Positions 1 through 4,995 of a stretch of DNA of 33,396 nucleotides are shown in pieces. A program made the translations under genes and the position numbers. Under the pieces are notes generated by a model. It was not told where the DNA came from. It ran no database searches and saw nothing but the letters and a program-made list of their open reading frames with translations. The stretch covers positions 1 through 33,396 of the forward strand of contig WBUG01000035.1 in the NCBI GenBank assembly GCA_008933835.1, given 5' to 3'. The stretch comes from Bacteroidota bacterium (GTDB lineage Bacteria > Bacteroidota > Ignavibacteria > UBA10030 > UBA8401). Numbering within the stretch: the first letter of the stretch is position 1; every line of letters starts with the position of its first letter.

Positions 1-809
1 TAGTCCGATTGCGAATTCATTATATAGTACGTTGTATCTATCGGAAAGAAATTCTCATGACTCCAAAACACAGTTCCAGCATTACCTTTTCTCCCCACAA
101 TAATTCCTGGGCCTTCAACTAAAAAGTCTCTATGCCTTCCGATTTCTCCGCTCGATCCGTACACAGGGTATGGTCCGTCAGATCGGTTTTCTTCTTTGAG
201 TGATTTACCATACCTTAGTTCTATTACGTCTCTCAATTTCTTCCTCTCCCATCCCTCCGGCACTCCATTCACAATCTTCGTCTTTTCATATCCCGGAAAT
301 CGCAACCGCACAAACCATTCTTTGTAGAGTTCACGAGCGGATTCTTCGAGCAAGTCAATGCGTTTGCGATTGTTATCAATCAGATCGTCATAGACAGATA
401 ATAAGTCGGCAATTCTTTTTTGTGCTTTATTTCTCGGGATTAAAATCGAGATATTATCAAGGTTATTCCGATTTAGCGTTGGTACTGATGCTCCACTACT
501 AAACTGATTGAGGTTAAGTGTCTTCAACTTGTAATAGACGAACTTGGGGACGTTTCCCTTGAAGTCCTTTACCCATAACGAAGTATTATGAGGCCAGAAT
601 GGGCCCTCAGCATATTGAACGATTCCAAGAGTTCCCGATCTTCCAGTGATGACGCCCGGTCCTTCGACCTTATATACATTGTGATATCCAATTATCGTAT
701 TAGATCCAAAGACAGGCACGTCACCTTCAACTATATTATCAACAGGGAGATCGAATCCTCTCTGTAATGTAATGAAGTCTTTGAACTCGACTTTTTGCCA
801 GGAATTCAT
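1..809 (-). CDS. hsdS: Type I restriction-modification specificity subunit HsdS (3' end outside window)
   Basis: HsdS provides DNA target recognition for the HsdM2S methylase and the HsdR2M2S2 restriction complex. I translated the minus strand by hand: 269 codons stay open from the ATG at 809 to the window edge, so the stop is missing. The first target-recognition domain covers about residues 1-125 and starts MNSWQKVEFKDF. The conserved helical spacer follows (residues ~126-170, with KRIADLLSVYDDLIDNN and LYKEWFVRLRFPG). The second recognition domain begins at VPEGWERKKL (~183). The half-repeat organisation is typical of HsdS, which is normally 380-450 residues, so roughly two thirds is visible. 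The start overlaps the hsdM stop as ATGA (806-809), implying translational coupling. hsdR is not in the window and could lie past the left edge. The composition is AT-rich, unlike the rest of the window. Confidence 0.93.
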   Translation of the reverse strand, partial: MNSWQKVEFKDFITLQRGFDLPVDNIVEGDVPVFGSNTIIGYHNVYKVEGPGVITGRSGTLGIVQYAEGPFWPHNTSLWVKDFKGNVPKFVYYKLKTLNLNQFSSGASVPTLNRNNLDNISILIPRNKAQKRIADLLSVYDDLIDNNRKRIDLLEESARELYKEWFVRLRFPGYEKTKIVNGVPEGWERKKLRDVIELRYGKSLKEENRSDGPYPVYGSSGEIGRHRDFLVEGPGIIVGRKGNAGTVFWSHENFFPIDTTYYIMNSQSD

Positions 810-2938
810 ACTAATTCACCAATATTCTTTTGGATCACCTTTGCCAATATTTCTGCCTCCAAGTTCAATGCTGCAAGTTCTTCATGTATTTCATGCAAGC
901 GGACCTCGAAATCAAATTCATCGTCTTCTTCGTTTGGGGTGACACCGACGTATCGCCCAGGTGTAAGACTCCAATCATTCTTCTCAACTTCCTTTTGAGA
1001 TACAAGTTTCACAAGTCCTTCGACATCTACATACTTAGCATCCGGGAAACGCTCCTGCAGCCAGTGGATCTGTCGATAGAAATATGATACGAACTTGATC
1101 GGCTCAAGCGTCTCTGACAACAACGTCGTTTCACCAGAATCGGGTTTTGGTGGAGCAAAATCTTTCACCTGTTGAAACAATTCCTTTTTACCCCCGTTGT
1201 CATTCAACTCATCACTTCCATCAAACAGTTTGCGAATCTGAGTAACAGCCCGTCCTATCAGTTTGGCTATGTGTTCGATCTGTTTCTGCGTTGCTTTAAG
1301 ATCGTTGGCCAATTCATCGAATGATTCCCGTGTTTTCTTTTGCTGTGAATTGGTCTCAGGCAGCTTCTTGTCAATAGATCTATGGAATTGATCAAGTTTG
1401 TTCGAGATGCTTTTACTTTCGCGTTTGAAGTCCGATTTGGTGGCTAACAATTCGTCATACGTTTTCTGTAACTCCTCCAGCGTATCTTTATGTGTCCCTT
1501 TCGCCTCCTTGACCATCGACAATTGGTCGGCCAACTTTCCAGTCAGGGATGCGAGCTCTTCAGAGAACTTGGCAAGTAATTCCGGAATCACAACAATCGC
1601 GACATCCATTTTCTCAAAATAGCTTTTAACAAGTCCAAGGTATTTGTCCGTCTCTCCCCGATACAGCCATACGATTGCCGATAAGTTGCTAAGCTGCTCA
1701 GGTGAAAAGTCAAATATCTTTCGTGTCACCTTGCGATGGATATTCCTCGCATCGATCATCAGGATCTTATCTAGCTTCTCTTTCGGCTTTCCCTTGTCAT
1801 AAAACCATAGTTCGCAGGGCACGGAGCGTGTATAAAAGAAGTTGGATCGGATGGAGACCATGACGTCAACATGGCCTGTTTCCACAATCTTACGGCGAAC
1901 CGTTGCTTCATCATGCCCGGCACTCGACGCCTGTGATGACATGACAAAACCGGCTCGTCCAGTTTTATTCAGGTAGCTATAGAAATACGACATCCACAGA
2001 TAGTTACCATTCGAGACCGCCTTACTTTTATTCACACCGGGAAGACCAAATGGCAACCGGGGATCTTTCTTGATCTTTTCTGCATCGACCCCATCAACGT
2101 TGAAGGGGGGATTTGCCATGACAAAGTCGGCCTTGCCAAGCATCTCATATTCATCCTGGTAGAAGGTGTTGCCGTTCTTGATGGCTCCTTCCAATCCGTG
2201 GACCGCCAGATTCATCTTGGCTATCCGAATAGTCGTTTCGTTTTTTTCCTGTCCGTAGAAGGTTACCACTTTGGCGACATCCTTGTGAAGCTCTTCTACG
2301 AAATGACTGGTCTGCACGAACATTCCGCCTGAACCACAGGCAGGATCAAAGACCTTTCCGTGGTCCGGTTCAATGACATTCACGATCATCTGTACAATCG
2401 AAGGCGGGGTGAAGAATTCCCCGTTGTCATGGGCACCCTGCATCGAAAACTTCATCAGAAAATATTCATAGATCCTCCCGAAGACATCGCCCGATGCTTT
2501 CTTTAATTCATCGTCGTTGAAAATACCAACCAGTCTTTTCAGGAGATCGTCAGCAAGTGCTTCATAATTGCGGGGGAGTATGCCTTTCAGGCTGTCGTAG
2601 TCTTTTTCAATCAGATCGAGTGCCTCATTAAGCGCTTTGCCGAAGTTCTCGTCTCCCTTGAGATTTACCAGATATTCATATTGCGATTCAGGACGAAGAA
2701 ATATCGACCGGCGCTTTGTGTAATCATCTTTCGTCGCGGGACGTTTCTGACCACCGCGACTCGGCAAATCTTTTTCCACTTCCGGCGTCACAGCCACAAA
2801 CCTGGTGTACGCCTGACGAAGAAAGAGGATACCCAGGACTGGCAGGAAATATTCATTCGATCCCAGACCGGAATTGCTTCGCAGCTGATCCGCAGCTGAC
2901 CAGAGCCTTTTTTCGAGCTTTTCGATATTCTGCATCAT
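806..2938 (-). CDS. hsdM: Type I restriction-modification methyltransferase subunit HsdM
   Basis: 710-residue N6-adenine DNA methyltransferase of a type I system, acting with HsdS. The N-terminal HsdM helical domain spans about residues 6-150. The SAM-binding motif I is DPACGSGG (198-205) and the catalytic motif IV is NPPF (276-279, context ADFVMANPPFN). The GEFFTPPSIV stretch (~173-182) is also typical. A long, highly charged, probably coiled-coil segment (~460-600) precedes the C-terminus, making it longer than the usual ~500-residue HsdM. The start is an ATGATG pair; the first ATG overlaps the upstream abiEii stop by four bases and has AAAGGA about ten bases upstream. The 3' end overlaps hsdS by four bases. 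All motifs needed for catalysis appear intact, so the methylase is probably active; the full system cannot be judged without hsdR. Confidence 0.96.
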   Translation of the reverse strand: MMQNIEKLEKRLWSAADQLRSNSGLGSNEYFLPVLGILFLRQAYTRFVAVTPEVEKDLPSRGGQKRPATKDDYTKRRSIFLRPESQYEYLVNLKGDENFGKALNEALDLIEKDYDSLKGILPRNYEALADDLLKRLVGIFNDDELKKASGDVFGRIYEYFLMKFSMQGAHDNGEFFTPPSIVQMIVNVIEPDHGKVFDPACGSGGMFVQTSHFVEELHKDVAKVVTFYGQEKNETTIRIAKMNLAVHGLEGAIKNGNTFYQDEYEMLGKADFVMANPPFNVDGVDAEKIKKDPRLPFGLPGVNKSKAVSNGNYLWMSYFYSYLNKTGRAGFVMSSQASSAGHDEATVRRKIVETGHVDVMVSIRSNFFYTRSVPCELWFYDKGKPKEKLDKILMIDARNIHRKVTRKIFDFSPEQLSNLSAIVWLYRGETDKYLGLVKSYFEKMDVAIVVIPELLAKFSEELASLTGKLADQLSMVKEAKGTHKDTLEELQKTYDELLATKSDFKRESKSISNKLDQFHRSIDKKLPETNSQQKKTRESFDELANDLKATQKQIEHIAKLIGRAVTQIRKLFDGSDELNDNGGKKELFQQVKDFAPPKPDSGETTLLSETLEPIKFVSYFYRQIHWLQERFPDAKYVDVEGLVKLVSQKEVEKNDWSLTPGRYVGVTPNEEDDEFDFEVRLHEIHEELAALNLEAEILAKVIQKNIGELV

Positions 2939-3819
2939 TGTGAAATAGTGTCCTTTCGTCCTTTTTCTTCCATCAATCCCTTGTTGAACTGCACAAGCAG
3001 TTGAAATGTCCTATCGGCTGAATAGTCATCTCTGAAACCGCCGCTCATCATGTCGGACAGCAGATTGAGAGGGGATCCTTCTGCCAGTTCTTCTGCAAGT
3101 ATCCCGGCGATGATTGTTCTCGTTTCTTCCGTGCATAGTAACCGAGCGTCGCGTCCTAGGAGACGGGCACTTTCCTGGTCGGAATCCAAACCCTCGGTAA
3201 GCAGATCCTCATCGCTCGTGAAGAGGCGAGCGTCATTGCCGGCACGTATATATGTCTTCAAGAGATACGAGACATCGATTGCGTCTTTTGGTCTGTTTGG
3301 ATAATCATCCTTCCAAGCTTGAAGCTTCATTATCGCCAATGCTGGAGGAGTGCTCACCTTTACAACCACGTCCGGATCAGAAGATATCTTCACATCAATA
3401 GCGCACTGAAGTGCTTCCTCAAATCCAATTGTTTTCATCACCGAAGCAAAATCAGGAGGCCAGGCAATAGATCCGGTCGGATGCTCTATCGGACCGAATG
3501 GAACGATATCAATGATCGTACCGGCATGATATATTCGGTGAGCCTTTCGTCTGTCCCGCTGATAAGACTTTGCCTCAATCAGTTTACCGATGATTGACCA
3601 GAATTCGCTCCATGAGTTTACGCGGATGGCCACATCAATATCCATGGTTGCGCGGGTCGTTGGAACACCGTAGAGATGTTGAAAAAATATATCCCGTGCT
3701 GTAGCACCAACCACAAAAAATGGAATGCCCAATGAAGTCGCAACCTCTGCGACATCAATCAGAACCCCGACGATGCTGGGATCGAGCTTATTGGAAATGT
3801 CTTTTGAGATATTCATCAT
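2935..3819 (-). CDS. abiEii: AbiEii/AbiGii-family nucleotidyltransferase (putative type IV toxin)
   Basis: 294-residue protein of the AbiEii/MenA nucleotidyltransferase superfamily. Known AbiEii proteins are growth-arresting toxins of bi-component abortive-infection systems. The sequence shows a GATARD element (38-43), a DID metal-binding motif (60-62, context TRATMDIDVAI), a further acidic strand IDIVPFG (103-109) and the later Lys/Asp block LAIMKLQAWKDD...KDAID (~161-182), which together make up the expected active-site pattern. The 5' end overlaps abiEi by 32 bases (29 if the second of the two leading ATGs is used) and the 3' end overlaps hsdM by four (ATGA), so it sits inside one coupled operon. 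The toxin role is inferred from the family and from the adjacent AbiEi-like gene. A non-toxin nucleotidyltransferase role is possible. Confidence 0.82.
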   Translation of the reverse strand: MMNISKDISNKLDPSIVGVLIDVAEVATSLGIPFFVVGATARDIFFQHLYGVPTTRATMDIDVAIRVNSWSEFWSIIGKLIEAKSYQRDRRKAHRIYHAGTIIDIVPFGPIEHPTGSIAWPPDFASVMKTIGFEEALQCAIDVKISSDPDVVVKVSTPPALAIMKLQAWKDDYPNRPKDAIDVSYLLKTYIRAGNDARLFTSDEDLLTEGLDSDQESARLLGRDARLLCTEETRTIIAGILAEELAEGSPLNLLSDMMSGGFRDDYSADRTFQLLVQFNKGLMEEKGRKDTISQ

Positions 3820-4813
3820 GTATCATTGTTGCCGCTTCAATCGTGCGAGGATCACCAACGGCAATAAGGTCCGCATACACAAGTAATGGTGGAACAACAT
3901 TTCTATTATCAGGATAATCGAATTGCCAAAACTTCTCTCGTAATTCGATCGGTCCCTTCTCATCCTTTCGCAACTTCAATGCGATGACGAGTTCATCAAC
4001 CGGTTTGCGCGTGTAGAGCGTAATGACCTCGGGCTTTAAATATTGAATCAGTTTATACGCAGCTACTTCGCCGCCCCACAATGCCTTTATCGGATCAATC
4101 TGAATATCCCGCCAAAACTGTTCGCGAGGTGCGGCATATCGTCCAATGAATCGTTTTCGACGTAACTTCGTTGTATAAGCATCGGTCCACTTCTCGGCAA
4201 GTTCCTTTTTCTTCATCAAAGTTCTTCCTCTGCCTGCGAGCTCGACGAGGTGCTGCTGTTCAGTTAAGTCTTTCATGACTCCGGCAACCGTGCCAAGCGC
4301 GACGCCGGCCGCAGTTGCGATATCCCGATATGTTGCGTTCACAAGATTTGGCTCACACAGAAGTGCAAAGATAATACGAATGCCACCAACGCCGAACAGT
4401 CCTTCGATGGTAGGTTCTGCATGACGCTCAGCAGCTTTGTTGCCGTAGACATAGACAAGGACCGGCGGTCTATTGAGGAATGCATTTCCTGCGGTGTCTA
4501 TAAACTGGATGTGAAGCTCCTTCATCTTCTTTGCCAGGTATGGAGGAGCGTATCTGGTTACGAGGATGTAGTTTTCGGGATTTGTGCGGACATGCTGGGC
4601 CAATCTTCCGAGGATTACTTCGTTGATCGTCGCTTTGACTTCGACGTTCAAATCATCAGTGTTGAAGTTTCCCGTCAGGCGTATCCGCCCATCAAGGTGC
4701 ATTTCGAGCGGAAGATGGTTATCCTGAAAATATTCCAGATGAATCCCAGTCGTTTGCTGAAATGCGTTGAGCGCCTGCTGAAGGATTTCCGTTTCAGTGT
4801 TTTGTCGTGTCAT
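3788..4813 (-). CDS. abiEi: AbiEi-family antitoxin/transcriptional regulator, COG4861-like
   Basis: 341-residue protein. The central part (~141-200, GIRIIFALL...YRDIATAAGVALGTVAGVMKDL) is a clear winged helix-turn-helix. The N-terminal ~130 residues contain LNVEVKA (55-61) followed by YILVTRYAPPYLAKKMKELHIQFIDTAGNAFL in two-strand style, which recalls a PD-(D/E)XK-like core; that fold reading is a guess. The C-terminal block PPLLVYADLIAVGDPRTIEAA is the region I associate with this AbiEi-like family. AbiEi antitoxins repress their own operon through inverted repeats in the promoter, and such repeats are present just upstream (4824-4874 and 4917-4935). It is the first gene of the operon abiEi-abiEii-hsdM-hsdS. 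It could alternatively act as regulator of the whole restriction-modification operon. Confidence 0.8.
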   Translation of the reverse strand: MTRQNTETEILQQALNAFQQTTGIHLEYFQDNHLPLEMHLDGRIRLTGNFNTDDLNVEVKATINEVILGRLAQHVRTNPENYILVTRYAPPYLAKKMKELHIQFIDTAGNAFLNRPPVLVYVYGNKAAERHAEPTIEGLFGVGGIRIIFALLCEPNLVNATYRDIATAAGVALGTVAGVMKDLTEQQHLVELAGRGRTLMKKKELAEKWTDAYTTKLRRKRFIGRYAAPREQFWRDIQIDPIKALWGGEVAAYKLIQYLKPEVITLYTRKPVDELVIALKLRKDEKGPIELREKFWQFDYPDNRNVVPPLLVYADLIAVGDPRTIEAATMIHDEYLKRHFQ

Positions 4814-4823
4814 TTCAAGTATC

Positions 4824-4874
4824 GTTCATATAGTAAATTGGTTCAACAATAGTGAACATAATGAAAATATGAAC
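4824..4874. promoter_or_regulatory. Nested palindromic operator in the abiEi leader
   Basis: Two inverted repeats share one centre at 4849. The outer arms are GTTCATAT (4824-4831) and ATATGAAC (4867-4874), a perfect 8-base match. The inner arms are GTTCA (4841-4845) and TGAAC (4853-4857). The element covers the -10 and the spacer of the operon promoter, which is where a repressor would bind. AbiEi autorepression through inverted repeats is established for other AbiE systems; that AbiEi binds here is inferred. Confidence 0.6.
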
Positions 4875-4883
4875 ACATGTCAA
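4855..4883 (-). promoter_or_regulatory. Promoter of the abiEi-abiEii-hsdM-hsdS operon
   Basis: On the minus strand TTGACA (4883-4878) is followed after exactly 17 bases by TATGTT (4860-4855), a near-consensus housekeeping promoter 42 bases from the abiEi ATG. The -10 element overlaps an inverted-repeat arm. No competing promoter is seen within the operon. Confidence 0.7.
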
Positions 4884-4916
4884 ACTATTTCATTAAAGAC
4901 ATTCACATTGTACGCG

Positions 4917-4935
4917 TGTTCATAATATGTGAACA
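4917..4935. promoter_or_regulatory. Second inverted repeat upstream of the abiEi promoter
   Basis: TGTTCA (4917-4922), seven bases, TGAACA (4930-4935). The spacing equals that of the inner repeat at 4841-4857. A further half-site TATGAACA lies at 4944-4951. Probably a second operator for the same regulator. Confidence 0.5.
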
Positions 4936-4966
4936 AGAAATAATATGAACATATCGTAAAATATCT

Positions 4967-4995
4967 AAAAAAAGCGCCATTTCTGGCGCCCTTTT
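4967..4995 (-). terminator. Intrinsic terminator, possibly bidirectional, downstream of ftcD
   Basis: GCGCCA (4974-4979) pairs with TGGCGC (4984-4989) around a TTTC loop. On the minus strand the stem is followed by seven T (complement of the A run 4967-4973), so it should end the ftcD transcript before the defence operon. On the plus strand CTTTT (4991-4995) follows, so it may work both ways. Confidence 0.75.

Follow-up and report, generated by a model that had tools for sequence, protein, structure and literature searches.

A four-half-site palindromic array over the abiEi promoter of an Ignavibacteria contig, a probable operator for autorepression by AbiEi antitoxins of the COG4861/PF09952 branch

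Introduction

Negative autoregulation of the bicistronic abiE operon has been established in Streptococcus agalactiae, where the type IV antitoxin AbiEi of the COG5340 branch carries a winged helix-turn-helix (HTH) and represses its own promoter through the repeats TGTTGCTTTTA-N27-TAAAAGCAACA, arranged as 23-3-23 and occupied by two monomers (PMC3985639, PMC7319586). In Mycobacterium tuberculosis, Rv2827c has four 23-bp repeats with gaps of 13 bp and 4 bp, and negative cooperativity was reported (PMC7319586). The COG4861-COG4849 pair was named a putative AbiE relative without sequence identity, and COG5340 and COG4861 are reported to share no sequence identity with each other (PMC3985639). Our literature search, which mostly covered journals outside subscription, found no earlier operator description for the COG4861-COG4849 pair.

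Here we analysed the window, a stretch of 33,396 nucleotides (contig WBUG01000035.1) from an Ignavibacteria genome of the Bacteroidota, which encodes an AbiEi of the PF09952 family that we take to belong to COG4861. A sequence-only reading of this DNA had proposed a palindromic operator over the promoter of a defence operon. For AbiE of the COG4861/PF09952 branch, the analysis yielded a predicted operator with a defined geometry and a candidate specificity residue. In the window, this antitoxin operator is positioned such that it could govern a type I restriction-modification (R-M) operon as well.

Materials and Methods

Homologues of abiEi were taken from the genomes of the phylum and from a large genome collection, giving 107 non-redundant loci of the PF09952/COG4861 branch. 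The four-half-site array was scored against a template of 20 positions, and a sequence-blind spacing scan counted any 5-mer repeated at a given distance, in comparison with shuffles. Viral contigs were scanned with the full 51-bp element, in which 20 bases were fixed.

Results and Discussion

Gene content and promoter of the abiE locus

The features of the locus are given in Table 1. Its first two genes form an AbiE type IV toxin-antitoxin pair, an AbiEi-family regulator followed by AbiEii with the genes overlapping, and the scores were 136.7 bits against PF09952 for AbiEi (cut-off 21) and 35 bits against PF08843 for AbiEii (cut-off 22.5). The reading frames overlap by 32 bp at abiEi/abiEii and by 4 bp at both abiEii/hsdM and hsdM/hsdS, the start of hsdM lying over the abiEii stop and that of the hsdS-like gene over the hsdM stop. 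Because neighbouring frames overlap in this way, abiEi-abiEii-hsdM-hsdS are likely co-transcribed.

Table 1. Features of the abiE locus and its control region in the window
Feature	Position	Strand	Evidence or remark
hsdS-like specificity subunit	1..809	-	translation and tblastn; cut by contig end
hsdM, type I DNA methyltransferase	806..2938	-	Pfam N6_Mtase E 2.6e-75; PADLOC MTase_I
abiEii, 294 aa, nucleotidyltransferase toxin family	2935..3819	-	PF08843, Pfam E 1.9e-8
abiEi, 341 aa	3788..4813	-	PF09952 AbiEi_2, Pfam E 9.4e-40; central winged HTH
Half-site 4, gene-sense TGAAC	4824..4828	-	10 bp ahead of abiEi start codon
Half-site 3, gene-sense TGAAC	4841..4845	-	directly beyond likely transcription start
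Half-site 2, gene-sense GTTCA	4853..4857	-	overlaps -10 end as TATGTTCA
Candidate -10, TATGTT	4855..4860	-	consensus prediction; TAT before half-site 2 conserved
Half-site 1, gene-sense GTTCA	4870..4874	-	inside -35/-10 spacer; position 0-4 kept in 95 loci
Candidate -35, TTGACA	4878..4883	-	consensus prediction; TTGAc enriched at same place in 95 relatives
Second array, likely auxiliary operator	4901..4950	.	ATTCA 4901, GTTCA 4918, TGAAC 4930, TGAAC 4946
Terminator-like hairpin	4968..4995	-	separates abiE promoter from upstream gene 6832-5135

On the plus strand, GTTCA at 4824-4828 and 4841-4845 mirrors TGAAC at 4853-4857 and 4870-4874 about a common centre at 4849, with the outer arms extending to GTTCATAT/ATATGAAC. 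The outer and inner inverted repeats described by the sequence-only reading, including their exact common centre, were therefore borne out. In gene sense (minus strand), half-sites 1 to 4 start at offsets of 17, 12 and 17. The candidate promoter on the same strand consists of TTGACA (4883-4878), a 17-bp spacer and TATGTT (4860-4855), so that the inner repeat overlaps the predicted -10, again as had been proposed, and the array as a whole overlaps the predicted promoter before abiEi, the placement of an operator. The further GTTCA-N7-TGAAC that had been noticed upstream is present at 4918-4934, but its own outer half-sites at 4901 and 4946 had been overlooked. Since these outer partners exist, with a plus-strand spacing of 17/12/16 and one mismatch in ATTCA at 4901, the region holds two arrays rather than one array and one repeat, and the coordinates of the locus should reach 4950. 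Across the 3.57 Mb genome we counted just five occurrences of the inner pattern, and two of these are the ones in the abiEi promoter, 77 bp apart. A chance origin of the repeats was ruled out by shuffles and reversed-pattern controls.

Conservation of the array before abiEi homologues

The sequence-only reading had suggested looking for GTTCA-N7-TGAAC ahead of homologous abiEi genes, and such conservation was found across several phyla: by template scoring, the four-half-site array reached at least 18/20 before abiEi in 95 of 107 loci, the best shuffle reaching 17/20. The records bearing it came from Ignavibacteria, Chlorobium, Deltaproteobacteria/Desulfobacterales, Nitrospirae, Acidobacteria and Proteobacteria; a few homologues (such as L101, L105 and L183) had no array. 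The aligned consensus of the relatives, in which promoter and operator are fused, can be written as TTGAcTTTTGTTCAtTATTTt..TATGTTCAttATTAATGAACAaa.aaAATAAaTGAAC or as TTGAcTTTTGTTCAtTATTTt..TATGTTCAttATTAATGAACAaa.aaAATAAaTGAACAAA. An additional array further upstream was seen in 20 of 108 relatives under a strict test and in none of the shuffled controls. A search with DNA alone agreed: of 395 genomes of the phylum, 39 contained three half-sites in the expected pattern (reversed control, 0), and abiEi was present in 27 of these 39 pattern-bearing genomes versus 39/395 overall. Matches that fell inside genes, for example in L110 and L122, look like chance.

In the sequence-blind scan, a 5-mer direct repeat at 17 bp appeared in 101 of 107 loci, compared with about 21 in shuffles, and inverted 5-mers were enriched at gaps of N24 (101 loci; shuffles 24), N7 (83; 26) and N41 (70; 19). 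These figures bear on whether the repeats could act as RNA, in the form of a leader hairpin, an attenuator or a terminator, as might be thought from inverted repeats that could pair within a partly transcribed array. A hairpin, however, is not expected to impose a 17-bp direct-repeat constraint. Moreover, complementarity between the 12-bp stretches separating the half-sites hardly differed from that with partners from other loci (4.5 versus 4.4 in viral copies, 5.3 versus 5.1 in cellular ones), and we give an RNA role almost no credence. An intrinsic terminator or RNA hairpin as such was disfavoured, the arms lacking extended complementarity.

The two-tier layout of the earlier reading is exact as geometry, but the tiers may instead be two interleaved palindromes. 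In the clade L083-L087 all remaining pairs are of the N24 type, and two such pairs are separated by exactly 70 bp. For this reason we think that the elementary unit is the N24 palindrome and that the full array would be two such palindromes interleaved with a 17-bp offset. A nested reading, with inner and outer tiers, is possible.

Furthermore, abiEii lies downstream of abiEi in 92 of 113 loci, while hsdM follows in only 4 of the 64 loci having at least 4 kb of downstream sequence, which indicates that the array accompanies abiE and not the restriction genes. As hsdM rarely follows, R-M gating would characterise the window locus and a small number of others, for example L072, L171 and L133, but not the family.

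In Chlorobium-group loci (L008, L010, L013, L018 and others) the abiEi start codon lies inside half-site 3 as ATGAAC, and in most of them half-site 4 falls within codons 6-8 (IEH), so that the operator dictates part of the AbiEi N-terminus there. A start codon inside the operator was rejected as a general rule: it holds in Chlorobium, but in viral copies the outer half-site reads ATGAAC about as often (46 of 120 among the matches listed) as the base preference at that place predicts.

A second element was also seen shortly after the abiEii stop, at distances of 16 and 28 bp (L093:4993-5043 and L102:4374-4424), or between divergent genes (L097:5492-5542), and some abiE cassettes are thus flanked by two operators. 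Flanked cassettes like those of L093 and L102, together with solo copies 4-15 bp behind the stops of other defence or toxin-antitoxin genes, would also suit a recombination or cassette-boundary site, in which inverted core sites around a 7-bp spacer serve to move abiE and other defence cassettes. Against this, the half-sites are conserved among loci whereas spacer and flanks diverge, the overlap with -35/-10 is precise, and most loci have no flanking second copy. We therefore regard a recombination site as very improbable.

AbiEi and its half-sites

The structure model of AbiEi (mean pLDDT 89) places the winged HTH at about residues 142-200 and its recognition helix at 173-185. By structure comparison of the model, this HTH resembles MarR and CRP family domains; a Foldseek search of the PDB gave no match at E 0.001 or better. 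Half-sites in abiEi loci are mostly GTTCA and sometimes GTACA or GTCCA. Residue 173 opens the modelled recognition helix, and all four half-sites lacked T at base 3 for 7 of 11 proteins without Leu173 versus 0 of 97 with Leu173. On the tree, changes in residue 173 and half-site formed seven independent pairs (3.8 agreeing, 0 disagreeing, 3.2 without difference; median p 0.125). When the alignment columns were simply scanned under a less strict label, columns other than residue 173 ranked higher. Because p is 0.125 once phylogeny is counted, the data are only suggestive of operator alleles changing in step with residue 173.

Two observations concern the other parts of the protein. Residues 229-341 (window 3791-4129), the AbiEi_2 C-terminal domain, resemble minimal nucleotidyltransferases, with ANT(2'')-Ia (Z 8.1) and MenT1 (Z 7.4) as matches, a Z near 8 being middling. 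The domain shares the fold family of AbiEi's own toxin and has no evident DxD motif; going by the model, AbiEi is possibly a pseudo-enzyme antitoxin. In the N-terminal part (window 4514-4813), strand order and a VEVK motif, the latter absent from some relatives, recall PD-(D/E)XK nucleases.

Proposed autoregulation

The array is very probably the autoregulatory operator of AbiEi antitoxins of the COG4861/PF09952 branch. The winged HTH of AbiEi would bind the four GTTCA half-sites, 17-12-17 bp apart, across the promoter spacer, the -10 and the start. The simplest arrangement would be two AbiEi dimers, one on the N24 palindrome of sites 1-3 and the other on that of sites 2-4, interleaved with it, possibly binding cooperatively, and their occupancy would exclude RNA polymerase and lower abiEi-abiEii transcription. 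The upstream second array may raise the local occupancy of AbiEi. The operator suggested by the sequence-only reading thus gained support from an array that is conserved before abiEi across phyla and accompanies abiEi rather than restriction genes. Its reminder that AbiEi autorepression through inverted repeats is known elsewhere holds for the COG5340 branch (PMC3985639, PMC7319586).

In likeness to S. agalactiae abiE, the window has a type IV antitoxin with a winged HTH, and its inverted repeats lie over -35, -10 and start. However, S. agalactiae has 23-bp repeats of the TGTTGCTTTTA type set 3 bp apart, and the window has instead four 5-bp half-sites at 17-12-17; moreover, the HTH is central in the window AbiEi and N-terminal in the COG5340 branch of S. 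agalactiae. The Rv2827c operator likewise has two inverted-repeat pairs over the promoter, four sites in total, but its half-site is unrelated to GTTCA.

The abiE transcript probably continues into hsdM and hsdS, and since it would then include them, expression of the type I R-M system would come under the same operator. Multi-site palindromic operators governing R-M operons are familiar from controller (C) proteins. The window resembles these in having such an operator at the head of an R-M operon. However, its head gene is abiEi of PF09952 and not that of a small HTH C protein, and R-M genes follow in only few of its relatives.

Copies of the element in cellular genomes and viral contigs

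Some Bacteroidota genomes in which PF09952 had no match, single-contig genomes among them, contain perfect solo copies, and several of these copies begin 4-15 bp after the stop codon of another defence or toxin-antitoxin gene. The neighbours of solo elements in genomes lacking a PF09952 match (L111, L113, L115, L116 and L117) are abiE genes of the COG5340 type, a DUF6088-AbiEii pair or an HNH nuclease.

In viral contigs, the full 51-bp GTTCA pattern matched at least 120 stretches, and the alleles GTACA and GTCCA were found 14 and 8 times; the GTGCA variant, the reversed pattern and a pattern re-spaced to 11/8/11 were found in none. Preferences between half-sites are the same as in abiEi operators, with T before each half-site and few G/C at positions 7-9. 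An abiEi homologue adjoined 1 of 80 GTTCA copies among the matches listed and 0 of 22 GTACA/GTCCA copies. A single-protein scan of the viral contigs found no close abiEi relatives, and AbiEi had no match in INPHARED phages with the query used. Phages (viral contigs L238-L357 and L359-L380) thus carry stand-alone four-half-site elements in the three half-site alleles known from abiEi operators, nearly all without abiEi.

Because perfect copies occur both in Bacteroidota lacking PF09952 and in phages lacking abiEi, another binder may exist, and AbiEi may have co-users and not be the sole user of the element. Carried further, these copies would suggest that the site belongs to another, more widespread DNA-binding protein of host or phage, which abiEi loci exploit or whose DNA-binding domain they share. 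However, the viral alleles are GTTCA, GTACA and GTCCA and never GTGCA, as expected if AbiEi-type proteins read them, no conserved regulator gene was seen beside the viral copies, and in 95 of 107 loci the element forms part of the promoter region of abiEi; we consider such an owner of the site unlikely. From the match between the alleles of viral copies and abiEi operators, AbiEi-type proteins are favoured as readers of the phage copies, another regulator with the same reading mode being possible.

If AbiEi is the reader, the copies in phages of many lineages may be decoys that titrate AbiEi during infection, or AbiE may sense infection when replicating phage DNA titrates AbiEi; we put forward this pair of ideas tentatively, as possible rather than probable. 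Should either hold, infection would be coupled to AbiE output through AbiEi bound to phage DNA, and phage copies read by AbiEi would give a direct handle on the means by which AbiE-type systems detect infection or are escaped. The nearest precedent is the pseudo-ToxI of phage PhiTE, described as phage mimicry of a toxin-antitoxin element serving as an escape route; it mimics an RNA antitoxin, not a DNA operator (PMC3475682).

Most viral copies are intergenic, with 16 of 120 lying within a called gene (automatic gene calling, among the matches listed), and many sit in gene-free gaps of 700-900 bp. Within the gap that holds it in one phage group, no other block is as well conserved as the element. 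The idea that viral copies serve the following gene as promoter-operators was rejected, as the -35/-10 signature was absent in 60 oriented copies. An Rfam search of ten phage loci gave nothing at the element. Among the proteins encoded in the vicinity of the viral copies are terminase, portal and major head proteins, DNA ligase, T4-type gp32 and UvsX, and one element-bearing viral contig also carries a permuted tmRNA (L264:4288-4503).
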